Part shown: positions 5,959-33,135 of the stretch, piece after piece
How positions within the stretch are numbered: position 1 is the first letter of the stretch
Layout of the letters: each line of letters starts with the position of its first letter
DNA from: a virus
Reading direction: 5' to 3' (one strand)
IMG/VR virus record: IMGVR_UViG_3300027833_000137
Span: 1 to 33,368 of that record
Length of the DNA stretch: 33,368 nt
Notes under the pieces: model-generated
The model's database searches: none
The model's input: the letters and a program-made list of their open reading frames with translations, nothing else
What the model was told of the DNA's origin: nothing
Made by a program: the position numbers and the translations under genes

Positions 5959-6590
5959 ATTTCAATTTGCTCCAAATCGTTTTCTGCGCGGGTAATGGCT
6001 TGAAGTCTTAGAACGTCTGCCGCCACGTCATGTTTACTATCATGTGCTTTAAAATTGTATTCCCATTTAGCAGTATCTGATACGGGAACAAATGCGTTTA
6101 GTTTAGGGAAATCAAACTTAGCATCAATAAATGTACGAGTATCACGTACAGACCAATACTTAAGGTAGTTACCCATAAGAGAAGTCTTGTTTGCGTATTG
6201 CGCCAATCTTTCTAGTATTACCGGATCAAAAGAGTTAGACCTTGACCACCATCGTTCAATTTTATCAGCTGAACGTAGATAATCAATTAACTTTTCCATA
6301 AATTGAGCAGGTGTAAGATCGTTTGCTGATGGTTTTAGATTAACTCTTAATTCAGGTGGTTGGTCAAGCCACCATTGTAAATCACGTTCGTTATATTTAC
6401 ATCCGTGATTAGTCATTTGGTCTTTAATATCAAACTTAGCTTGGTTCATGCCAAGTACCAACTCTTTAAAAGAATATGGATTTTCTGTAAACCTACTCCA
6501 ATCAAAGGTCGTGTACGAGCAATCAATTGCAGGTACCTCACGTGAGTTTTGACCAATGGTTTCAAAGTCAATAATAAAGTGTGTGCTCAT
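5955..6590 (-). CDS. dexA: DexA-like 3'-5' exonuclease (DEDD family)
   Basis: Predicted 3'-5' exonuclease of the DnaQ-like fold. The N-terminal FIIDFETIG carries the D-x-E of motif I; RNAse-T-like motif II (SNSFDPVILERL) and motif III (HDSKHDVAADVLRL) follow in order. The stretches FDIKDQ, LQWWLDQPPELRVNLKP and the YWSVRDTRTFIDA region align well with T4 DexA (227 aa). T4 DexA degrades DNA and removes non-templated ends; it is not essential. The gene overlaps both neighbours by 1-4 nt and has an intragenic promoter 57 nt upstream, inside the C5-methyltransferase-like gene. Confidence 0.88.
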   Translation of the reverse strand: MSTHFIIDFETIGQNSREVPAIDCSYTTFDWSRFTENPYSFKELVLGMNQAKFDIKDQMTNHGCKYNERDLQWWLDQPPELRVNLKPSANDLTPAQFMEKLIDYLRSADKIERWWSRSNSFDPVILERLAQYANKTSLMGNYLKYWSVRDTRTFIDAKFDFPKLNAFVPVSDTAKWEYNFKAHDSKHDVAADVLRLQAITRAENDLEQIEI

Positions 6591-7792
6591 TATATAAATG
6601 CCTCAAGCGTATCTGCTTTTGTAAGGTAATCTGCCTTTTGGCTATGATTATACTGTACAACGTAGTCTGTGTCAACCATAGTTAGTTCACCATTTAAATA
6701 TTTTTTAACCTCACCCGCCATGTCAGCAGCAGTTTGAACAGGTACATTTTGACATATATGATTAGCATTCTTAGTAGGATTAAGTAGCTCAAAGTCTCCT
6801 GGCAATCCCATAATAGTCATAGCTTCTCTATATGTAATAAACCGATCCTCGTCTGGGTGAGTAAGCTTGGTTGGATAATGTCCAACAAAAGCACCAATAT
6901 AATCTTTTGGAATAGTTACGCCACGCTTCATAATGTTACCGCCAGATTTTAGCTTTTCATATTTACGCATAGCTGAGGCTGCAGCTCTTTCGTGGCCTTT
7001 TTCTGTCATCCATTCAGAAACTTGTTTATATGTATATCCTTTTTTCTCAATATGAGTAAATACACATTGGCCAGATTTAGCAACATCAGGACTAAGTTCT
7101 TCTGAATATTCTTTATGGGTCTTGCCACCTGCGTCGTGTTCAAGTAAGAATTGATACCATGGATCTTCAGATGGTTTATTTGAATTGATTGTTTCCATTT
7201 GGAAGTTTGACTTTACGTCACGTATTACTTTTTCAATAGGATCGCCGCGTTTACTGAAATAATTAAGAAGAGGTGTTTGTTTATTTTGCCAGAAGAAATA
7301 GAACGAACGTTCACGTACTTGTGGTCCACCATGTAATAGAGACCTTGTTCTATATACAGACATTGTATATCCGTTATCTTGTCCAATTTTTCTTAATTGT
7401 TCTCTAACATTTTTACCAATTTTTCCAGCAAATCCTGGAGCATTCTCACCCCAGAATACTTTTGGCTTATATTCACCAAGAACATATTCTGCAGTCTTTC
7501 CCATCCATTGATTATTTGGATTGTGGTCACCATAACCATGTGACATCATAGATAAACCAGCACAAGGACAAACAGACGATACCACATCAGCTCGTTCATT
7601 TGCTGGTGGTTTTTGGTCTTTATCTAAAACATAATAAGGTATTTCATTATTATAATAGTTTAAAATATGACTATCATTTGAAGCGAATGGTTCATATGAC
7701 ATAAAATGTAATGGTGGAACGCCAAACGCTTGCTGAGATCCAATAGTTTCACCACCAATTAATGGAACGATGGATGCATGTGTATAAGTCAT
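6590..7792 (-). CDS. C5-cytosine DNA methyltransferase-like protein
   Basis: By family, transfers a methyl group from S-adenosylmethionine to carbon 5 of cytosine. Conserved motifs in order: a divergent SAM-binding motif I (PLIGGETIG, residues 10-18, instead of FAGIGG), motif II-like SYEPF, the catalytic PC in SVCPCAGLS (Cys77), motif VI as ENA (116-118, usually ENV), motif VIII QVRER (158-162), a target-recognition-like middle region, motif IX-like TYREAMTIMGLP and motif X NHICQNVPVQTAADM. The active-site residues are intact. It lies in the same operon as a dCMP hydroxymethylase, which should already occupy C5, so its substrate or role is puzzling (see findings). Overlaps both neighbours by 3-4 nt. 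Confidence 0.88.
   Translation of the reverse strand: MTYTHASIVPLIGGETIGSQQAFGVPPLHFMSYEPFASNDSHILNYYNNEIPYYVLDKDQKPPANERADVVSSVCPCAGLSMMSHGYGDHNPNNQWMGKTAEYVLGEYKPKVFWGENAPGFAGKIGKNVREQLRKIGQDNGYTMSVYRTRSLLHGGPQVRERSFYFFWQNKQTPLLNYFSKRGDPIEKVIRDVKSNFQMETINSNKPSEDPWYQFLLEHDAGGKTHKEYSEELSPDVAKSGQCVFTHIEKKGYTYKQVSEWMTEKGHERAAASAMRKYEKLKSGGNIMKRGVTIPKDYIGAFVGHYPTKLTHPDEDRFITYREAMTIMGLPGDFELLNPTKNANHICQNVPVQTAADMAGEVKKYLNGELTMVDTDYVVQYNHSQKADYLTKADTLEAFI
6647..6675 (-). promoter_or_regulatory. Intragenic consensus promoter before dexA
   Basis: TTGACA (6675-6670), 17-nt spacer, TATAAT (6652-6647) on the minus strand, inside the last 30 codons of the C5-methyltransferase-like gene. It points at the dexA-like gene whose ATG is 57 nt beyond the -10. 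A perfect 12/12 match at ideal spacing is unlikely by chance. Confidence 0.75.
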
Positions 7793-9139: not shown

Positions 9140-10145
9140 TGTCTATACACTCCATAATAAACTCTTTGTTAGGGTGGTATTTATAGACACGAGTCACCTC
9201 TGCTGATACCAATAACACCAACATATCTTTGTTTATATCATTTGCAAGAGCCAAATAATCTAATGATTGTTTAAACAATTTAATAGGGTATTCATTAATA
9301 AGTAAGCTTGCACAAAACTTTGCGGCATCCAATTCAGTACATCCAAATACTCCACAAATTGGATCAATTAAATGCATATCACAATTATTAAATAACATGT
9401 TTTTAATACCAAAATCACCGTGAGAATAACTACGTGATAATTCGTATTTTGTTAATTCTGAAGCTATTTCAATTAGCTTTGTTTGACCAGAATTATTAGC
9501 ATGTTCTTTAATGCGATCAATATAATCAATAAACTTTAAATCGTCTTGCGGTGATGCTGTTTTCATTTTATCTAACTGTGTTTGAACAGTAGCTAAAGCC
9601 ATCCAAAAGTTATTTGAGAAAAAGTCTTCGTCATGCTCAATATAATCCATAGTAATTGTTTCACCAACAACTCTATGAATAATAGGTGTTTGAATACCGA
9701 TACGTTCAGCGTTAGCAAACCATTTGCGTGTTTGATGCGCATTTTCATCTTGCTTATGTACTACTTTACCATCAGTATAAATTTCACCACCAGATAATCC
9801 ACCTTCGAGTTCGCGAATATCAACTTCGAGAAAGTCTTCAGGCATAATACCTTTATCGTCAATATAATAGGCCGCCAATGGTTTATCAAACGAGAGCATA
9901 TTAAATCTTACATTATGTTTATTAAGCCAACCAAGCATGCTTTCTTCGTATTTTTTACGGGCATCGTTTCGAGTTTTACACGATATAGAACCACGCGCAG
10001 TAAATATATCAATAATCCAATCCTCGGCATGCAACTTATTCAGCTTTTCAATAAGAGGTTTGTTTGGTAAAGCTTCATCAAATTTACGGTTTTGATGGAA
10101 CGCTAAAGTGTCGTCAAAATCGACTACGATACGTTTATGGTACAT
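9123..10145 (-). CDS. HAD phosphatase / APH-like kinase fusion
   Basis: Two-domain protein. Residues 1 to about 110 form a small HAD-type phosphatase: DFDDTL (9-14) with the nucleophile and acid aspartates, FTARG (48-52) and the IDDKG loop (95-99), like phosphatases of capsule gene clusters. Residues about 115-340 look like an aminoglycoside/choline-kinase-fold phosphotransferase: a glycine-rich GGLSGGEIYTDG loop followed by a VVHK lysine, catalytic HGDFGIKN (242-249) and metal-binding LIDP (259-262). Similar domains serve sugar-phosphate metabolism in polysaccharide clusters. With the cytidylyltransferase next door it may prepare a sugar or polyol phosphate. The start overlaps the Agt-like stop (TAATG). 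Confidence 0.82.
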   Translation of the reverse strand: MYHKRIVVDFDDTLAFHQNRKFDEALPNKPLIEKLNKLHAEDWIIDIFTARGSISCKTRNDARKKYEESMLGWLNKHNVRFNMLSFDKPLAAYYIDDKGIMPEDFLEVDIRELEGGLSGGEIYTDGKVVHKQDENAHQTRKWFANAERIGIQTPIIHRVVGETITMDYIEHDEDFFSNNFWMALATVQTQLDKMKTASPQDDLKFIDYIDRIKEHANNSGQTKLIEIASELTKYELSRSYSHGDFGIKNMLFNNCDMHLIDPICGVFGCTELDAAKFCASLLINEYPIKLFKQSLDYLALANDINKDMLVLLVSAEVTRVYKYHPNKEFIMECIDNVNKQ

Positions 10146-11584
10146 TAGAAAAATTCCTCAAGGGTGGCGCCTGTTTCTTCTGGTTCTTTGATTTCGTTTT
10201 GTTTGCCATCTACTAATGTATACGGTTTTTCATTTAAAACACTTCCTGGCGTTGATATAATAATCTCACCAGCTTCACGTCTTTGTCGTGCACTTGGAAA
10301 ATAGCTTGAAATCCTGTCTATAAAATCTACTTTATCATGTCTTTTGCCTTTTGTCAATACAAAATTTAAAAACTTAGGACCAAGCACTTCAATATCATTA
10401 AAGTTGTAAACTAATTCTTGGCAAGCCTTTGTACGCGCTTCCCATTCTTCTTTGTTATTATAAATTCTATTTAATTCTGCTGATAACTCTTCTTCGCATC
10501 CTGCTTTGGATACAAGTGGTCCATAATATTCACCCCACTTTTTACCTTCAGGAGATACTGCATTTTCAGCAAAGTCCTTACTAATAATAGGAAGAGATAG
10601 AAGAAATGATTCGATTACAGTATATTCCATACGATTGCCATACTCTTTTGGCTCACGTAGACGATATCCACACCATGCTGCCGTAGAACTACCAAGCTGA
10701 TTCATTCCAAAATCATATTTGTATTGATCGTATGCTACGATGGTTGTACCAGTTTTTAGTTTTTCTGCGGGTGGCAAGTAATGCTCACCTTTAGAATTTT
10801 GAAAAATGAACAAAATCTTTGGTTTATATGTTATATGATAAGGGTATGGATCAGTCGCAAGTGTTTTAGACTCTGGGCTTCCAACAGATTGTATTGAACG
10901 TTCACAACCCATCAAAGTTAAATCCCAATCATTCTTCATATATGGTTCAATACGACAAATCATTGCTGGATCTTTTAAGGTAGACATGCGACCCATGTAC
11001 ATAAGGTGTTTCTTGCGGTCTTCAAATGATACACGGTGCTTATCGTATTCTTTTGTGTGAACCCATATTGGATTTTCTACTAAACGACCTTTAAGGCCTG
11101 GATCAGCGTGCAAATAACAATCATTAGCATAACCTTCAAATGATTGTGTAACACCAATGTCTGCTAAAGAAAATAACTCAACAGCCTGTGTTTGTCTATT
11201 GATAGTATTCTTTGTAATAGCGTGGTCATGTATTACAATGATTGGATCACTGATGTTTTCAACAAATTCACGGAAACGATCTATGTATTTTCCATTTTTA
11301 CGAGTTGGGTATGAATGTATGATTGCAATATCACAAGTATTTACTTCATCAATTACTGGTTGAGCGTCTTTAATTTCATGCTCTTTTTCAACTCGATGAA
11401 TCGTACTTTTCCAGTCAGTATTTTTTGCACGATTAAATTTCTGCTTATTATCAAAATCAATTAATATTGTTTCGTGCCCTTGGGATACTAACCACTCTTC
11501 AAAAATGTTTGCACCTTTAGTAACACCACATCCTTCAATTCCTTTACCGAATATGAAAGCTATTTTCAATTTTTCTTTTATCAT
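10145..11584 (-). CDS. agt: Alpha-glucosyltransferase-like (Agt) DNA glycosyltransferase
   Basis: Predicted to glycosylate 5-hydroxymethylcytosine in phage DNA, shielding it from restriction. The N-terminus KIAFIFGKGIEGCGVTK (residues 7-23) is nearly the same as in T4 Agt (RICIFMARGLEGCGVTK), and further similarity is visible in EVNTCDIAIIHSYPT and IIVIHDHAI (T4 has DCDILIINSVPAT and VVVYQHDHSV). Later RMSTLKDPA and the YTVIESFLLSLPII region are the donor-binding half of a GT-B enzyme. It is 479 aa, longer than T4 Agt (400 aa), with about 80 extra C-terminal residues. The sugar need not be glucose. It overlaps the methyltransferase-like gene by 41 nt and the fusion gene by 1 nt. Confidence 0.87.
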   Translation of the reverse strand: MIKEKLKIAFIFGKGIEGCGVTKGANIFEEWLVSQGHETILIDFDNKQKFNRAKNTDWKSTIHRVEKEHEIKDAQPVIDEVNTCDIAIIHSYPTRKNGKYIDRFREFVENISDPIIVIHDHAITKNTINRQTQAVELFSLADIGVTQSFEGYANDCYLHADPGLKGRLVENPIWVHTKEYDKHRVSFEDRKKHLMYMGRMSTLKDPAMICRIEPYMKNDWDLTLMGCERSIQSVGSPESKTLATDPYPYHITYKPKILFIFQNSKGEHYLPPAEKLKTGTTIVAYDQYKYDFGMNQLGSSTAAWCGYRLREPKEYGNRMEYTVIESFLLSLPIISKDFAENAVSPEGKKWGEYYGPLVSKAGCEEELSAELNRIYNNKEEWEARTKACQELVYNFNDIEVLGPKFLNFVLTKGKRHDKVDFIDRISSYFPSARQRREAGEIIISTPGSVLNEKPYTLVDGKQNEIKEPEETGATLEEFF

Positions 11585-12215
11585 AATTTAATCTCCATTC
11601 ACTATATTCATCATCTAACATCGCCCACTGGCAACGGGTGTATTTATGTTTTGCTGTCTTGTCCCATATGATCCACATATAAGCAATCATACCACCAATT
11701 TGTTCTGTTTTGTCGACAGGTTCCAATATTTTAGAATCAAATTTAACTCTGTCTGATAGATATATTATATCACTAGGTGGGTTGTTTGTAAACAGTTTAT
11801 TTCGCTTTTTACCTTCTAAAAAAGTTAAACGCAAAAACATTGCAGTGTAATCGTATTCCTCTGTCCATTTTTCTGCCAGTTTATGTGGCAAATTTTTATG
11901 GTATGGAGGATTGGTAATTACACCTTTAACGTCTTTATCTTTTGGTAACTCTAATGCGTCATATGGCGTATTTATGTCAACTAGACTATCCGGATATACA
12001 TTAAGGTCGTAGGATATAACATCGTGACCATTTCTTAATAGCTCTGATGAAATATGCCCACGACCAGCGCATGGCTCTATAACTTTATGTGGTACATTAC
12101 CGTATTTACAGAGAATGTATGTTGCTAAGGGAGGGGTAGGATAAAAATCATTCGCCGTTCTATTAGGGTCGTTCTTTTTAACACCAACATATATGTCTGT
12201 TAAGTTATTCGCCAC
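11544..12215 (-). CDS. N6-adenine methyltransferase-like protein
   Basis: Predicted SAM-dependent DNA methyltransferase, about 223 aa. It shows the DFYPTPP segment common in phage adenine methylases, motif I IEPCAGRGHIS, an acidic loop (SYDLNVYPD) and the catalytic NPPY. There is no clear separate target-recognition domain, so it could be a small solitary methylase or modify another substrate. There is no ATG near the start; GTG at 12215 has GGTGA upstream and is preferred, but TTG at 12233 is possible. The gene begins inside the dCMP deaminase end and finishes 41 nt inside the Agt-like gene, an unusually long overlap. Confidence 0.82.
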   Translation of the reverse strand: MANNLTDIYVGVKKNDPNRTANDFYPTPPLATYILCKYGNVPHKVIEPCAGRGHISSELLRNGHDVISYDLNVYPDSLVDINTPYDALELPKDKDVKGVITNPPYHKNLPHKLAEKWTEEYDYTAMFLRLTFLEGKKRNKLFTNNPPSDIIYLSDRVKFDSKILEPVDKTEQIGGMIAYMWIIWDKTAKHKYTRCQWAMLDDEYSEWRLNYDKRKIENSFHIR

Positions 12216-12765
12216 TTGAGGGATCACCAACAATAGAGACTATAACGCCAGCTTCCTTAAACATTGGAGCTGATTGAGTATCCCATAGGTCAACCCATGT
12301 TTGTGGAGTCATTGGTGTATTTGGTTTAATTACAACTCGACGAATACCTGCTTGAATAATAAGCTTTGTACACTCAGGACAAACTGGTAAACCATAAACA
12401 TAAATTGTAGCATCTTTAACAGATACACCAGAATAAAGCGCATTCATTAATGCATTCGTCTCAGCGTGTACAATTAAAGGATATTTTAATTCTCGGTTAT
12501 TAAGACGTTCTTCAGTATCATCAATACCTTTAGGAAAACCATTATAGCCAGTAGCTAGGATACGTCGTTCATCATTAACAACAATGGCACCAATTTGACT
12601 TGACGGATCTTTGCTCCAGCATGCCATAAGGGAAGCCATTGTCATAAATCGCTTATCCCATTTTAGTTGTTTAGCATCTTCTTCTCTCATACGTCTTCCC
12701 ATAAAATTGTGATATGACTCTTGTTTCCTATCAGTTGCATCATCCGGATGCACCCAAATACTCAT
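12205..12765 (-). CDS. cd: dCMP deaminase
   Basis: Converts dCMP to dUMP, supplying precursor for dTMP. The 186-aa product (T4 Cd: 193 aa) has the zinc site of the cytidine-deaminase fold: HAE (His100, catalytic Glu102) and PVCPEC (Cys129, Cys132), plus SSQIGAIVVND and the ATGYNGFPKG substrate loop typical of dCMP deaminases. It overlaps the hydroxymethylase stop by TAATG, so the two enzymes competing for dCMP are made from the same mRNA. Confidence 0.95.
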   Translation of the reverse strand: MSIWVHPDDATDRKQESYHNFMGRRMREEDAKQLKWDKRFMTMASLMACWSKDPSSQIGAIVVNDERRILATGYNGFPKGIDDTEERLNNRELKYPLIVHAETNALMNALYSGVSVKDATIYVYGLPVCPECTKLIIQAGIRRVVIKPNTPMTPQTWVDLWDTQSAPMFKEAGVIVSIVGDPSSGE

Positions 12766-14394: not shown

Positions 14395-14626
14395 TGTTAT
14401 AATGTTTCTTCCAAGTTGAACCTATGGTACCATAACCTGAACCAGACATATATACTTGCCACATAATGCGTGATACCTCACGTGAATTTTTGGCTTTATC
14501 TAAATCGTAAATAAGTCTGTTATGTACGACCTTTTTTGTTTTCTTTACATCGATAAGAGAGTTGGCTGCTTCTCGAGCCGCAGACAATTCCATCTTATCT
14601 AATTTTTGAAGTATTTCTAAATCCAT
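14387..14626 (-). CDS. Hypothetical protein, 79 aa
   Basis: Unknown function. Helical N-terminus, then SREVSRIMWQVYMSGSGYGTIG, a stretch that I believe recurs in small proteins of T4-like marine phages. Slightly basic. It starts at an ATG overlapping the stop of the 98-aa gene by one base and overlaps the next gene by 8 nt, so it is part of one translationally coupled series from 14922 downwards. Confidence 0.65.
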   Translation of the reverse strand: MDLEILQKLDKMELSAAREAANSLIDVKKTKKVVHNRLIYDLDKAKNSREVSRIMWQVYMSGSGYGTIGSTWKKHYNNV

Positions 14627-14922
14627 TATCTATCCCATACATTATTATAACGATTGCGAATATATACATACACATCAGCATGAGTAGCTAATGGAAGAGG
14701 CAAACCTTGGTTATACATACGACCATTATGGCCTCTTGGTCCACGACCTTGAAGCTTTACATATCTTTGTTTATCATCAGGGAATGCTGTATTATTGAGC
14801 TTAACAACGGTTCTAAGCCCATCTACGGCCGCTTGGTCCTCTGCGATAGGTTTACCTTCAACCATTCTAACTGTGAACTGGTATGAATCTGAATTTCTAT
14901 TTTTTGTAGTATATGTTGTCAT
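14626..14922 (-). CDS. Hypothetical protein, 98 aa
   Basis: Unknown function; basic protein with a KLQGRGPRGHNGRMYNQG segment that could contact nucleic acid, and a C-terminal beta-like ATHADVYVYIRNRY. First gene of the unit transcribed from the duplicated promoter cassette at 14930..14988; the leader carries AAGGAAA about 8 nt before the ATG. Confidence 0.65.
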   Translation of the reverse strand: MTTYTTKNRNSDSYQFTVRMVEGKPIAEDQAAVDGLRTVVKLNNTAFPDDKQRYVKLQGRGPRGHNGRMYNQGLPLPLATHADVYVYIRNRYNNVWDR

Positions 14923-14929
14923 AATATAG

Positions 14930-14988
14930 TTTCCTTATTTGTTGATTCTAATATAACCGATTCGACATCAAATGTCAATAGCTAATTT
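14930..14988 (-). repeat. 59-nt promoter-leader repeat, copy 1
   Basis: This block is identical over 59 nt to 31182..31240 on the plus strand. It contains upstream AT-rich sequence, -35, spacer, -10, transcription start region and the AAGGAAA ribosome-binding site, so a complete promoter plus leader has been copied. It starts at the stop codon of the upstream gene. Confidence 0.95.
14950..14978 (-). promoter_or_regulatory. Sigma70-type promoter with inverted repeat over -35
   Basis: TTGACA (14978-14973), 17-nt spacer, TATATT (14955-14950) on the minus strand. GACAT-TTG-ATGTC (14964..14976) forms an inverted repeat that covers part of the -35 box and the start of the spacer, as in two plus-strand copies. 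Drives the 98-aa gene at 14922. Confidence 0.85.
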
Positions 14989-15350
14989 CAAATTAAATCA
15001 ACTTTTTTCTTAAATACCTTTTCAGCTTCATTCCACGAAGCAAATGAATTACTTGATAATCCATCTAAGTCTTTTACATCTTTAACATAGTTTTCACCAT
15101 TGGCATATATCATTTCGCCATACATGTATGAATTTTTATTAAAGCCTTCATCATCTTCGTATAATTCATTTATACAAACATAACCTTTATACTGACAAAT
15201 AAATTCATCAAAACTGGTAAGTTTTCTTATATTACTTACGTGATTACCTACTTCGCCACCAATAGTACTACACATAGCAAGCGCGTCTTCTATTCGAGAA
15301 GCAATTCCAACAGTTTCTGAAGGAAATGTATTTGATTTAACTGTAAACAT
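14988..15350 (-). CDS. Hypothetical protein, 120 aa
   Basis: Unknown function. Mixed alpha/beta composition; FTVKSNTFPSETVGIASRIEDALAMC suggests a small globular fold, and the C-terminal SFASWNEAEKVFKKKV is helical. The ATG at 15350 is preferred because it lies one base after the stop of the 84-aa gene; an in-frame TTG upstream would overlap that gene. It ends exactly at the duplicated promoter cassette. Confidence 0.65.
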   Translation of the reverse strand: MFTVKSNTFPSETVGIASRIEDALAMCSTIGGEVGNHVSNIRKLTSFDEFICQYKGYVCINELYEDDEGFNKNSYMYGEMIYANGENYVKDVKDLDGLSSNSFASWNEAEKVFKKKVDLI

Positions 15351-15351
15351 A

Positions 15352-15606
15352 TTATACGCTTTCAAATTCTTCTACTTCGCGACCTTCTGCGAACAACATT
15401 AATTCAACTGCCAACTCTCGAGCTTGCTCACGAGTCAATTGCAAATTGTTGAAGAACCCATCTGATGTAGTAGGTTGGCTAAAACCACGAGCTTTTTTCT
15501 GTGTTATTTGAACACACTGCATGCGATCTTGTCCACCCCAAAAACGAGTTTGGTTTAATTCATTAGTTGAAGATAAGTTTGGTACGTTTCGTAAATCTGT
15601 TGACAT
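15352..15606 (-). CDS. Hypothetical protein, 84 aa
   Basis: Unknown function. The middle is beta-like (RMQCVQITQKKARGFSQ) and the C-terminus is a helix (TREQARELAVELMLFAEG). No recognised domain. The ATG is preceded by AAAAAAGGAATCATCAA and by a promoter of the repeated family at 15639..15667. It is coupled to the downstream 120-aa gene by a one-base gap. Confidence 0.65.
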   Translation of the reverse strand: MSTDLRNVPNLSSTNELNQTRFWGGQDRMQCVQITQKKARGFSQPTTSDGFFNNLQLTREQARELAVELMLFAEGREVEEFESV

Positions 15607-15628
15607 TTGATGATTCCTTTTTTATATT
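15600..15628 (+). promoter_or_regulatory. Possible antisense promoter over the 84-aa start codon
   Basis: On the plus strand TTGACA (15600-15605), 17-nt spacer, TATATT (15623-15628). The -35 overlaps the first codons of the minus-strand 84-aa gene and the site faces the minus-strand promoter at 15639..15667. It has the same TTGACATTTGAT start as the repeated promoters. Could be accidental. Confidence 0.35.
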
Positions 15629-15638
15629 TGTTAATACT

Positions 15639-15667
15639 AATATAACCGATTCTATATCAAATGTCAA
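15639..15667 (-). promoter_or_regulatory. Sigma70-type promoter, diverged copy of the repeat family
   Basis: TTGACA (15667-15662), 17-nt spacer, TATATT (15644-15639) on the minus strand, within a sequence sharing the AATCGGTTATATTAG core with the copies at 14950, 31192 and 31759. In this copy the downstream arm of the inverted repeat is changed to ATATA, so the hairpin is lost. Drives the 84-aa gene. Confidence 0.82.
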
Positions 15668-15691
15668 TAGTTAATTTGATTTAATTTCAAA

Positions 15692-15937
15692 TTAATCGTA
15701 ACCTAAATGTGCTACATTTTTCATTTCTTCTGTAAGTATTTCTTGTACACGATATTCATATGCTTCATCGAAACCTTCGTCAGCATATTGGGATCTTTCG
15801 TGATTGCCCCATAATCTTTTAAAATAACTATCATAAAGGTATTCAACTACAGAGTCAGGCTCTGCTTTATCAATTAATTGACCTTTTACCATCCAATTCA
15901 AACGGTTGGCTTCTTTACGTACCTCTGGTGAGCACAT
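15692..15937 (-). CDS. Hypothetical protein, 81 aa
   Basis: Unknown function; acidic, helical, with aromatic patches (SVVEYLYDSYFKRLWG). The N-terminus MCSPEVRKEANRLNWMVKGQL looks helical. Good GGAGG ribosome-binding site 7 nt before the ATG. The leader contains CATAAATA, one base off the T4 late box, and a 14-bp perfect palindrome further upstream (16004..16017). Confidence 0.65.
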   Translation of the reverse strand: MCSPEVRKEANRLNWMVKGQLIDKAEPDSVVEYLYDSYFKRLWGNHERSQYADEGFDEAYEYRVQEILTEEMKNVAHLGYD

Positions 15938-16003
15938 GGTGGGACCTCCAAATATTAAACAATGTAATATTATTTATGTCATAGGAGATCCCTAGATTGG
16001 CAG

Positions 16004-16017
16004 TGTTACCGGTAACA
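16004..16017. promoter_or_regulatory. 14-bp perfect palindrome TGTTACCGGTAACA
   Basis: Perfect dyad in the 102-nt gap between the phosphate transporter stop and the 81-aa gene. No T-run follows on either strand, so it is not a terminator. It resembles operators of LacI-family regulators; from memory the gluconate repressor GntR recognises a site of this type. Function unproven. Confidence 0.5.
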
Positions 16018-16039
16018 GCTGAAAATAATTAATTTATTT

Positions 16040-16999
16040 TTAAAAACCGTTTGGTACTAATACATAATGAATAAGTAATACGATACCAAGTGAGGCACCT
16101 AATCCAATCATCATCTTAAAGAAGTCTCTACCAATTAATGGAAACACTGTTTTAAACTTTTGTTTACCAGTAAAGGAAGCAATAGCTAATTCGCGTCCAC
16201 ATAACAAACCAACAAATACCCATGTAGTACTCATAGGAATATCGTTAAGTTCTTTAAAGAAGTATAGAATAACGAAGTAAACTAAATCAATAATTGTAGC
16301 ACTTCTAACGTAACGAGTGTTATGTTTTTCTAATACGATTTGTTGGATTTTACCTCCACCACTTTTTAACATAATACCAAGTCCACCAACGAATACAACA
16401 CTAATCATAATCATTAGTGATACGTCAAGTTGTCTTGGTAAAAATACAGCGATGTTAGCCATATCATGTGACAACCAAGTCCACCACAAAAATCCAGTAG
16501 TAACCCACTGAGCTACTCGCCACATAACTTTGTGATTATCTTTAACAGGTTTTGCTTCATCTAAAAGCCGGCTTACGACTATCCAAATTACATACGCTGC
16601 TACTGCAGCCACTGCATAACCCATCATTGATTTCATTAACATTTTTTCTAATACGAATGTACTAGCAAATGCTGATAAGACTAAGAATGAAGTTGATACT
16701 GGAACACCGACTCGTGTCAATGCTAATAGTACTGCCGGTGCCAAAGCGTGGTACCATTGTACTTCTTGGAATGGTATTTTGTTTAGTCGTCCATAACTAA
16801 TATCTCCGCTATAGGTATACCATCCATACCAAATAGCAAATAGCAGTACGGAACTTGCCGCTGCCCACATTGTTGTCCAATGAAATTTCTCGTTGTTTGA
16901 TGCAATCCAAGTACCGAGAGTTTGTACTGAATCGTTTGCGATAACCGCATAGGCAGCGAATATAAATCCTACTACCATCCATAGAGTGAGTTGGTCCAT
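16040..16999 (-). CDS. PiT-family inorganic phosphate transporter (PHO4)
   Basis: Predicted cation-coupled phosphate permease of the host inner membrane. The 319-aa protein has about nine hydrophobic segments and the internal inverted repeat of the family: AVIANDSVQTLGT (residues about 18-30) is the GANDxxNxxGT signature and VGVPVSTSF the PVSTT loop in the first half; WLSHDMANIAVFLP and DIPMSTTWVFVG are the second-half counterparts. It is shorter than bacterial PitA (about 500 aa), lacking most of the central loop. As an auxiliary metabolic gene it could raise phosphate uptake for DNA synthesis. It stands alone with a TATAAATA late box at 17088..17095 and a strong AAAGGAGA ribosome-binding site. 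Confidence 0.88.
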   Translation of the reverse strand: MDQLTLWMVVGFIFAAYAVIANDSVQTLGTWIASNNEKFHWTTMWAAASSVLLFAIWYGWYTYSGDISYGRLNKIPFQEVQWYHALAPAVLLALTRVGVPVSTSFLVLSAFASTFVLEKMLMKSMMGYAVAAVAAYVIWIVVSRLLDEAKPVKDNHKVMWRVAQWVTTGFLWWTWLSHDMANIAVFLPRQLDVSLMIMISVVFVGGLGIMLKSGGGKIQQIVLEKHNTRYVRSATIIDLVYFVILYFFKELNDIPMSTTWVFVGLLCGRELAIASFTGKQKFKTVFPLIGRDFFKMMIGLGASLGIVLLIHYVLVPNGF

Positions 17000-17087
17000 T
17001 TGTTTCTCCTTTGTTTGACAGCTTTACCCTGTCGCTCACATTAAAATGTCGCTATCATATGACTTTACATCATTCTAATAACGACAT

Positions 17088-17095
17088 TATTTATA
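17088..17095 (-). promoter_or_regulatory. T4-type late promoter box before the phosphate transporter
   Basis: TATAAATA on the minus strand in the non-coding gap, about 90 nt upstream of the transporter ATG. T4 late promoters consist of just this -10-like box, read by the gp55-containing polymerase, and gp55 is encoded in this window. The octamer is expected several times by chance in AT-rich DNA, so position is the main support. Confidence 0.5.
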
Positions 17096-17112
17096 AGGTA
17101 TAAGTGGTACTT

Positions 17113-30798: not shown

Positions 30799-31178
30799 TT
30801 ATTGATGTTTATATTTCTGAAGACTCTGCTTTAAACGAACTCGCAGAAAAGTTTGTTAAATGGATATGCAAAGAATATGGAATACTACCAAGAAAAGTTT
30901 CTATTGAGGCACATGATTTAGTTGGAAACAATGGAATGTGCTTTGACGAACCTGATGGCAAGTTTACGATATTGGTAAAAGACAACAGAGATCTTGGACA
31001 TATGTTTACTACGATTGCTCACGAAATGATTCATGTTAAACAATACATGACTCAAAACCTTGGAAAACTATTAGATGACAACAAGGATTTACCATATGCT
31101 GATCGTTGGTGGGAAGAGGAAGCGTTTTCAAATGCAATTCCATTAGTAACAAGATTTAGTAATTTAATTTCACTTTAA
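30795..31178 (+). CDS. HExxH zinc-metallopeptidase-like protein 2, 127 aa
   Basis: Second member of the tandem pair. Zinc motif IAHEMIHVKQYMTQNLG, possible third ligand in WWEEEAFSNAI. It shares with its neighbour the motif, an acidic substrate-side region and the W(W)E-EA segment, but the N-terminus differs (VYISEDSALNELAEKFVKW). Coupled by ATGA. Whether it is an active peptidase or a degraded fold cannot be told. Confidence 0.76.
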   Translation: MIIDVYISEDSALNELAEKFVKWICKEYGILPRKVSIEAHDLVGNNGMCFDEPDGKFTILVKDNRDLGHMFTTIAHEMIHVKQYMTQNLGKLLDDNKDLPYADRWWEEEAFSNAIPLVTRFSNLISL

Positions 31179-31181
31179 TTC

Positions 31182-31240
31182 AAATTAGCTATTGACATTT
31201 GATGTCGAATCGGTTATATTAGAATCAACAAATAAGGAAA
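31182..31240 (+). repeat. 59-nt promoter-leader repeat, copy 2
   Basis: Identical over all 59 nt to the minus-strand copy at 14930..14988. It covers the promoter, start region and ribosome-binding site of the 106-aa gene. The next bases before the ATG differ. Confidence 0.95.
31192..31220 (+). promoter_or_regulatory. Sigma70-type promoter with inverted repeat over -35
   Basis: TTGACA (31192-31197), 17-nt spacer, TATATT (31215-31220). GACAT-TTG-ATGTC at 31194..31206 forms a perfect 5-bp inverted repeat that begins inside the -35 box. Drives the 106-aa gene. Confidence 0.87.
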
Positions 31241-31247
31241 TATACTA

Positions 31248-31568
31248 ATGACTATCGAATTTAATACTAAAACACCACTTACAAATATAAACGAATTGAT
31301 CGCTTTATACCATTCATATGTTAAAGATAACGATGAGTTTTCTGAAATGTACGACGAAGATGCAAATGACTTTATGCAAGCTCTTTCTTATTTCCGTCAA
31401 AACGATACTGAAGCACTTGCAAAACATGTTATGGTTATGGATACTTCACCTCGTGAAAGAATCATTGAAGCATTTTATTTTGATTGTGGTAATGATTTCG
31501 TTGAAAACGTTCTTGGTTATACAATGAGTCAATCTTGGATTGATTTTCAAGCACAAAGGAGTGCATAA
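31248..31568 (+). CDS. Hypothetical protein, 106 aa
   Basis: Unknown function; acidic and helical (INELIALYHSYVKDNDEF, then EDANDFMQALSYFRQND), with a C-terminal FVENVLGYTMSQSWIDFQ. First gene behind the duplicated promoter cassette, with AAGGAAA upstream of the ATG. The stop overlaps the next ATG (TAATG). Confidence 0.68.
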   Translation: MTIEFNTKTPLTNINELIALYHSYVKDNDEFSEMYDEDANDFMQALSYFRQNDTEALAKHVMVMDTSPRERIIEAFYFDCGNDFVENVLGYTMSQSWIDFQAQRSA

Positions 31569-31729
31569 TGTTTTTTATAATAGTAGTTACATTCATGTTA
31601 ATTTTTGGATATATCGGAACTTTGTTTAACGATATGGAAAAATCTGAAGGTGAACTTGGCGCTCTAGCGTGGTCCTTATTTGGTGTCATAGTAGGTTGTG
31701 GAGTTACAACTTACTTTGGTATTATTTAA
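31568..31729 (+). CDS. Small membrane protein, 53 aa
   Basis: Short ORF starting MFFIIVVTFMLIFGYIGTLF and ending VGCGVTTYFGII: two hydrophobic segments (about residues 2-19 and 34-53) around a short charged loop (NDMEKSEGE). Translation is coupled to the 106-aa gene by TAATG. Probably sits in the host inner membrane; function unknown. Confidence 0.65.
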   Translation: MFFIIVVTFMLIFGYIGTLFNDMEKSEGELGALAWSLFGVIVGCGVTTYFGII

Positions 31730-31758
31730 TTTTTATTGAAATTAAATGAAATTAACTA

Positions 31759-31787
31759 TTGACATTCCATGTCGAATCGGTTATATT
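31759..31787 (+). promoter_or_regulatory. Sigma70-type promoter, third inverted-repeat copy
   Basis: TTGACA (31759-31764), 17-nt spacer, TATATT (31782-31787). The inverted repeat GACAT-TCC-ATGTC (31761..31773) keeps both arms while the loop differs from the other copies. Drives the 77-aa gene. Confidence 0.86.
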
Positions 31788-31818
31788 AGTATTATAAACA
31801 AAACGAAAGAGAATCACT

Positions 31819-32052
31819 ATGGCTTCAATTAATCTAACATTCTTCGAACAAACTAATCAGCAACAAATTATTGCTTCATTTGGTCGTAAAATGATAAACT
31901 TTTCTGAAAGTGGATTAAATATGCACGTACCTTTGGAAATCTTAAATGCTTTCTCACGTGTTGGCGAAGAAATGGCTGAAACAGGTTCAATGAAAGACCT
32001 ATTACCTGTTGATATGCAAGTTGTGAAATATGCAAGGAAAGTAATGAAATGA
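31819..32052 (+). CDS. Hypothetical protein, 77 aa
   Basis: Unknown function. The N-terminus MASINLTFFEQTNQQQII is strand-like and the rest helical (LEILNAFSRVGEEMAETG). Preceded by AAAGAGAATCACT and its own promoter. The stop overlaps the next ATG (ATGA). Confidence 0.65.
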   Translation: MASINLTFFEQTNQQQIIASFGRKMINFSESGLNMHVPLEILNAFSRVGEEMAETGSMKDLLPVDMQVVKYARKVMK

Positions 32053-33058: not shown

Positions 33059-33135
33059 GGTTCCTTAGCTCAGCAGGATAGAGCAAGTGCCTTCTAAGCA
33101 CTAGGTCGTAGGTTCGAATCCTACAGGAATCGCCA
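33059..33135 (+). tRNA. tRNA-Arg (anticodon UCU)
   Basis: Complete cloverleaf: acceptor GGTTCCT with AGGAATC (one G-U pair), D stem GCTC/GAGC, anticodon stem AGTGC/GCACT with loop CTTCTAA (anticodon TCT), T stem GTAGG/CCTAC with TTCGAAT loop, discriminator G and encoded CCA. It would read AGA/AGG, codons used by the phage and often rare in hosts. Confidence 0.95.

Follow-up and report, generated by a model that had tools for sequence, protein, structure and literature searches.

A dispersed family of PeSL-like, putative early-promoter cassettes before small accessory genes of uncultured T4-like phages

An identical 59-nt block with a sigma70-type promoter was found in opposite orientations before two unrelated genes of the window, that is, the whole analysed stretch of 33,368 bases (IMG/VR record IMGVR_UViG_3300027833_000137), which is a fragment of a virus genome. 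This block and its relatives are probably (at a probability of roughly 0.7) early promoter paralogues that short-tract homologous recombination has spread and kept uniform, and this would enable the exchange of modules.

The 59 nt at 14988-14930 (minus strand) were identical over 59 of 59 positions to those at 31182-31240 (plus strand), and the exact run stopped precisely at these coordinates; the initial annotation had described the repeat in just these terms, including the identity through promoter, leader and ribosome-binding site, and is upheld on both points. At about 92% identity, the match widened to 75 nt (14930-15004 and 31166-31240). The 59-nt match was the longest repeat of the window, whereas 20 Markov shuffles of the window yielded longest exact repeats of 14-19 nt. 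The layout of the block was AAATTAGCTA-TTGACA-TTTGATGTCGAATCGGT-TATATT-AGAATCAACAAATAAGGAAA, followed by the start codon, and it comprised an upstream stretch rich in AT, a promoter of sigma70 type (TTGACA-17-TATATT, with 11 of 12 sigma70 consensus matches in a promoter scan), a leader and a ribosome-binding site. In copy 1 (14930-14988, minus), the -35 element TTGACA was located at 14978-14973 and, after the 17-nt spacer, the -10 element TATATT at 14955-14950, with the AT-rich end upstream and the leader and ribosome-binding site behind; the promoter core of copy 2 (31182-31240, plus) was located at 31192-31220, with the leader and ribosome-binding site following. Two diverged copies, correctly placed at 15639-15667 and 31759-31787 by the earlier reading, each differed from the main copy at 2 of the 29 core promoter positions, and their similarity outran these 29 nt, forming direct repeats of 69 nt (83%) and 66 nt (82%). 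Copy 3 (15614-15695, minus; core 15667-15639) had an upstream AT inverted repeat and a leader, and copy 4 (31737-31811, plus; core 31759-31787) an upstream AT stretch and a leader. All four window copies had -35 TTGACA, a 17-nt spacer and TATATT, then a ribosome-binding site and ATG, and AATCGGTTATATTAG occurred in the window exactly four times, at 14948-14962 (minus), 15637-15651 (minus), 31208-31222 (plus) and 31775-31789 (plus).

The genes behind the four copies encoded proteins of 98 aa (MTTYTT...; 14626-14922, minus; copy 1), 84 aa (MSTDLR...; 15352-15606, minus; copy 3), 106 aa (MTIEF...; 31248-31568, plus; copy 2) and 77 aa (MASINL...; 31819-32052, plus; copy 4), and no known function was found for any of them. 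There was no mutual blastp match among these four proteins even at E < 10; therefore, a larger gene duplication as the source of the 59-nt repeat was ruled out, and the claim that the genes behind the copies are unrelated stands. The 98-aa protein was without a family match, but in the related contig G021 a homologue of its gene lay at the equivalent position downstream of a family promoter, and G020 had a weak counterpart there (30% identity), while the homologue of the 84-aa gene was displaced in G021.

The window contained a T4-type replication set, namely, gp43 DNA polymerase (43% identical to cyanophage gp43), gp44, gp45, SbcCD-like gp46/47, a helicase and the large and medium subunits of topoisomerase II; the nearest isolates by the large subunit were Vibrio and Shewanella T4-like phages (about 50%). 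The core genes of the long IMG/VR contigs G020 (221 kb) and G021 (201 kb) had mostly 47-89% amino-acid identity to those of the window. On the basis of this replication set and the relatedness to G020 and G021, the window is read as belonging to a clade of T4-like phages that is uncultured and probably marine. Recombination genes were represented by gp46/gp47 in the window and by RecA/UvsX-family matches in G020 and G021. Genes lay on the minus strand up to about 26.8 kb and on the plus strand beyond; thus, of the initial description of the two main copies as lying in divergent halves of the genome, the two divergent transcription blocks are retained, whereas the halves of the whole genome are beyond the judgement of a fragment. 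An alpha-glucosyltransferase homologue and two DNA-methyltransferase-like ORFs (10145-11584, 6590-7792 and 11544-12233, minus) may point to modified phage DNA. The window also carried a tRNA-Arg with anticodon TCT (33059-33135, plus). An ORF of 319 aa (16040-16999, minus, within 15977-17111) had no Pfam or PHROG match and was absent in several close relatives that were colinear on either side; its 69% homologue in G020 (138954-139916) adjoined the same 81-aa neighbour.

A search of relatives for the promoter core, proposed in the initial annotation, yielded about a dozen family copies each in G020 and G021, as well as copies in other viral stretches. The family pattern in relatives, CTATTGACATT-N5-TAGAATC(A/G)GTTATATT, occurred in over 100 viral stretches and preceded about 33 unrelated gene families in the analysed set. 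In pattern scans of viral contigs, the strict motif was found in 19 stretches, the looser motif in 31 and CTATTGACATTNNNNNNNGAATNNGTTATANT in at least 118. When 76 copies that differ in their downstream sequence were aligned, AAATTA-CTA was kept before the -35 element, as was TTGACATT, followed by approximately five variable positions and then conserved GAATC(A/G)GTTATATT; it should be noted that the family loci were collected by pattern, and the conservation of the patterned letters is therefore partly built in. G020 and G021 also had other early promoters, without the GAATC(A/G)G spacer element. Family promoters mostly preceded genes of 53-171 aa (two of about 317 aa), whereas other promoters were often found before larger genes. 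No match to the family promoter with up to three mismatches was found in four complete records, namely, KVP40, nt-1, RB49 and 1.081.O, the last being the nearest isolate, and comparison of the cassette with phage GenBank records gave no convincing match in named phages; the suggestion of an independent family associated with small accessory genes agrees with these results. In host genomes, the same promoter gave 16 matches, nearly all of them scattered singles in gut Firmicutes MAGs, which were taken as chance or unrelated promoters. An interpretation of some contigs as divergent phages sharing only the cassette was corrected, since G002, G004 and others proved to be other genome regions of the same clade, and the block they share is therefore a dispersed repeat. 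Apart from this, the leader of one gene (MGTSS; G004 40675-40740, with orthologues in G005, G020 and G021), GATTCTATAAGGTAAAACAAAAGGAATCAAT, was almost invariant, while the promoter spacer and the protein diverged, which may indicate that an RNA element (GATTC...GAATC) surrounds the ribosome-binding site.

Whether the copies reflect copying or convergence was judged from the spacers. If ordinary early promoters had converged on one consensus without any copying, through selection for strength or for binding of the spacer by an unknown factor, and the 59-nt identity were a product of selection and chance, then the free spacer positions would be random, and exact sharing above the shuffled level indicates copying. 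One promoter was drawn per downstream protein family (33 families, 500 draws), and the spacers were compared with column-shuffled ones. Exact 17-nt spacer matches between unrelated families amounted to a mean of 9.9 pairs versus 0.32 after shuffling (about 30-fold; observed minimum 4, shuffled maximum 4 over the 500 draws). The window allele TTTGATGTCGAATCGGT preceded five unrelated genes, and TTTCGTTTAGAATCAGT preceded six. Spacer similarity tracked leader and upstream similarity (r of about 0.22-0.25, median p 0.03). The -35, -10 and GAATC(A/G)G blocks stayed at orthologous sites while the adjoining spacer positions changed, which argues for selection on those blocks and, to that extent, for convergence; however, convergence explains neither the excess of exact spacer sharing between unrelated genes, nor the 59-nt identity that includes the leader, nor the presence or absence of a whole cassette (see below), and this explanation is considered unlikely. 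Another explanation, in which the palindrome GACAT-NNN-ATGTC over the -35 element is an operator and the copies are controlled together as the regulon of a repressor encoded by phage or host, agrees with three alleles that keep the palindrome whole although their loops differ (TTTG, TTCC and TTCT before ATGTC), but at orthologous sites the palindrome is lost (ATATA, ATGCC or ATGTA instead) and most family alleles of G020 and G021 do not have it, making such a regulon highly improbable.

The spacer element differed between clades: GAATCGG was found mostly in the clade of the window, whereas GAATCAG occupied nearly all sites in G020 and G021, orthologous ones included. Such a distribution has the pattern of concerted evolution, and a changed recognising factor would give the same pattern. 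It is possible, though doubtful, that GAATC(A/G)G is a separate promoter element for a phage or host factor, rewritten lineage-wide by gene conversion among dispersed copies; if this were true, the accessory-gene promoters of a lytic phage would form a regulon that co-evolves with the regulator. Local replacement of spacers was seen in two comparisons, which are the most extreme among many pairs, with p-values uncorrected for that choice. At an orthologous promoter of G002 and G003, the spacer differed at 10 of 17 positions, the upstream sequence at 1 of 45 and the third-codon positions at 35 of 284 (p = 2e-5). At the MGTSS gene of G004 and G005, the spacer differed at 8 of 17 positions versus 38 of 498 in the flanks (p = 3e-5), the contrast with third-codon positions being modest (p = 0.013). 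In G004, the MGTSS core matched the window allele exactly; G005 and G020, the latter serving as outgroup, had other cores with AAATAGT before the -10 element, a difference which suggests that the window allele was the incoming one. A spacer switch in G016 (S1; 7 of 17 positions) was dropped as proof of gene conversion because third-codon divergence was equally high (35 of 98).

The check proposed in the initial annotation, whether copies coincide with gene gain or loss, was followed up at the level of junctions and gene order. The window genes at 31248-31568 and 31568-31729 overlap (TAATG) at a cassette-free junction (31560-31575, plus), whereas in the close relative G001 a complete 74-nt cassette lies between the orthologues; the difference is unpolarised, i.e., a gain in G001 or a loss in the window. 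The 53-aa gene at this junction (MFF...; 31568-31729, plus) was 53% identical in G001, with much better conserved flanks, and is probably a swapped module. Identity between G001 and the window was about 60% in this gene and rose to nearly 100% across the leader of the next cassette, copy 4, which marks a module boundary relative to G001. The end of the 53-aa gene contained a terminator-like hairpin (31690-31715, plus), the sole one near a window copy, and in the equivalent place G001 had a different hairpin sequence and then a run of T. The 106-aa gene had its own promoter in all loci read, yet different genes followed it in different phages; in G020 it was located near 203.8 kb and the homologues of its window neighbours near 122 kb. 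Similarly, the G004 genes at 34557 and 34994 were found elsewhere in G020, each again behind a family promoter. Across the compared contigs, adjacent genes separated by a family promoter were no longer neighbours in G020 or G021 for 7 of 11 pairs versus 62 of 341 for promoterless pairs (p = 0.0014) and 5 of 37 for pairs with another promoter (p = 0.002), and with restriction to small, size-matched downstream genes p was about 0.002-0.003; the test was small and post hoc, with some junctions counted from both genomes. The accessory genes behind family promoters may also lie in volatile regions for other reasons.

In the explanation preferred here, that of paralogous promoters homogenised by recombination, each copy would be a complete early-expression cassette with a UP-like stretch rich in AT, a strong promoter of sigma70 type (its strength being inferred from the form of the sequence), a short leader and a ribosome-binding site. 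The promoter would be recognised by host RNA polymerase, and the small accessory gene behind it switched on early in infection; transcription of the cassette units by host RNA polymerase at this stage is most likely, given the sigma70 form and T4-type biology. The copies would be paralogues. Short-tract homologous recombination, within a phage or among phages infecting the same cell, would spread and homogenise them, the conserved blocks AAATTANCTATTGACATT and GAATC(A/G)GTTATATT providing the patches of homology. It would also lead to the exchange or relocation of promoter-plus-gene modules in accessory regions, as proposed for the promoter-early stem-loop (PeSL) cassettes of T4-type phages. 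The agent is probably the phage's own recombination system (gp46/47 and the RecA/UvsX-family protein), which would use the repeats so that cores are overwritten, cassettes added and promoter-gene units moved. No transposase, own recombinase, target-site duplication or circular form was found that would point to a vehicle for the cassettes. The data fit homologous recombination between copies, and "mobile" is strong wording for them; of the initial proposal of a PeSL-like mobile cassette, dispersal and copying between unrelated genes are retained, while a stem-loop terminator is missing from nearly all copies.

PeSLs occur as near-identical copies among the non-essential genes of hyperplastic regions, and insertions, deletions and replacements between relatives end at these cassettes; mini-circles arising through exchange between neighbouring copies are a further trait ascribed to them. 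On the evidence of a few cultured phages, such cassettes were proposed to be the joints at which T4-type genomes swap accessory genes. The stem-loop is reportedly a terminator, going by the title of the later of two studies on these cassettes. PeSLs of T4-type phages were described by Arbiol et al. (2010) and Comeau et al. (2014), and other papers present them as promoter stem-loops mediating the shuffling of T4-type genomes (PMC4503421, PMC3950731). A separate sequence family appears to act in a PeSL-like manner in an uncultured marine clade present in many metagenomes, mostly without a terminator, which suggests that the promoter alone, by offering homology at many sites, may suffice for accessory-gene swapping. 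The named alleles and the clean junction with and without a cassette make the shuffling idea directly testable on complete genomes and isolates.

The early promoters of the T4-like phages RB69, RB49, 44RR, RB43 and Aeh1 have phage-specific consensus logos (PMC1524935, as far as consulted). The window family resembles them in the sigma70-type -35 and -10 elements, the A-rich UP-like upstream sequence and the place before novel ORFs, but differs from the promoters as described in the consulted part of that paper in exact-spacer copying and in the presence or absence of whole cassettes. MotA-dependent middle promoters of T4, by the consensus in the same source, have a MotA box 11-13 nt before the -10 element and no -35 element; this class was rejected for the cassette, which has a perfect -35 element, the TGCTTTA-like stretch of some alleles lying just 8 nt before the -10 element. 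A MotA search of G020 and G021 gave no match, with the control likewise silent. A repeated promoter/inverted-repeat motif with a proposed role in regulation and shuffling is described for the haloarchaeal virus HGTV-1 (PMC3950731). This tailed virus likewise has a conserved promoter-like motif ahead of many ORFs; unlike that of the window family, the motif is an archaeal TATA-type promoter with an inverted repeat, and the two are likened by description, not by sequence.

The closest comparison is that with PeSLs. The family shares with them the sigma70-like early promoter form (TTGACA-17-TATATT, with a ribosome-binding site and ATG behind), the near-identical copies among small accessory genes (four in the window and about a dozen in each of the contigs G020 and G021), and gene-order breaks and module exchange at copies, exemplified by the 74-nt cassette of G001 and by the small sample of broken junctions (7/11 versus 62/341). 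It differs from PeSLs in the AT-rich upstream stretches, in some copies with a weak AT inverted repeat, in the conserved spacer element GAATC(A/G)G, in that its sequence was not found in the complete records of RB49, KVP40 or nt-1 at up to three mismatches, and in that nearly all copies are missing an effective terminator hairpin. With the hairpin script, 4 of 24 promoters in the positive control RB49 showed strong hairpins ending in a T-rich tail, whereas an upstream hairpin of -7 kcal/mol or lower was found in 2 of 44 family copies, both being orthologues of one position; within the window, a terminator-like site lay just upstream only at copy 31759. The AT inverted repeat (AATTTGA-N7-TCAAATT) was rejected as a terminator, its fold being weak, without a T tail and missing in some copies. 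Several RB49 early promoters had GC-rich inverted repeats in the -35/-10 spacer, e.g., TTGACAGGGGATCGGTGATCCCCTATACT (L218, 43031, minus; L219, 8916, minus; L220, 28970 and 4550, minus). That the cassettes are true PeSLs, combining a promoter with an effective terminator hairpin and moving like those of RB49 and phi1, is favoured by the same kind of phage, the similar promoter type, the accessory-gene location, the module boundaries and the hairpin at copy 31759, but is improbable in view of the hairpin counts. Since the promoter, dispersal and shuffling features of PeSLs are present and the terminator feature is not, the cassette is, on these sequence features, a PeSL-like variant and not a member of the PeSLs.
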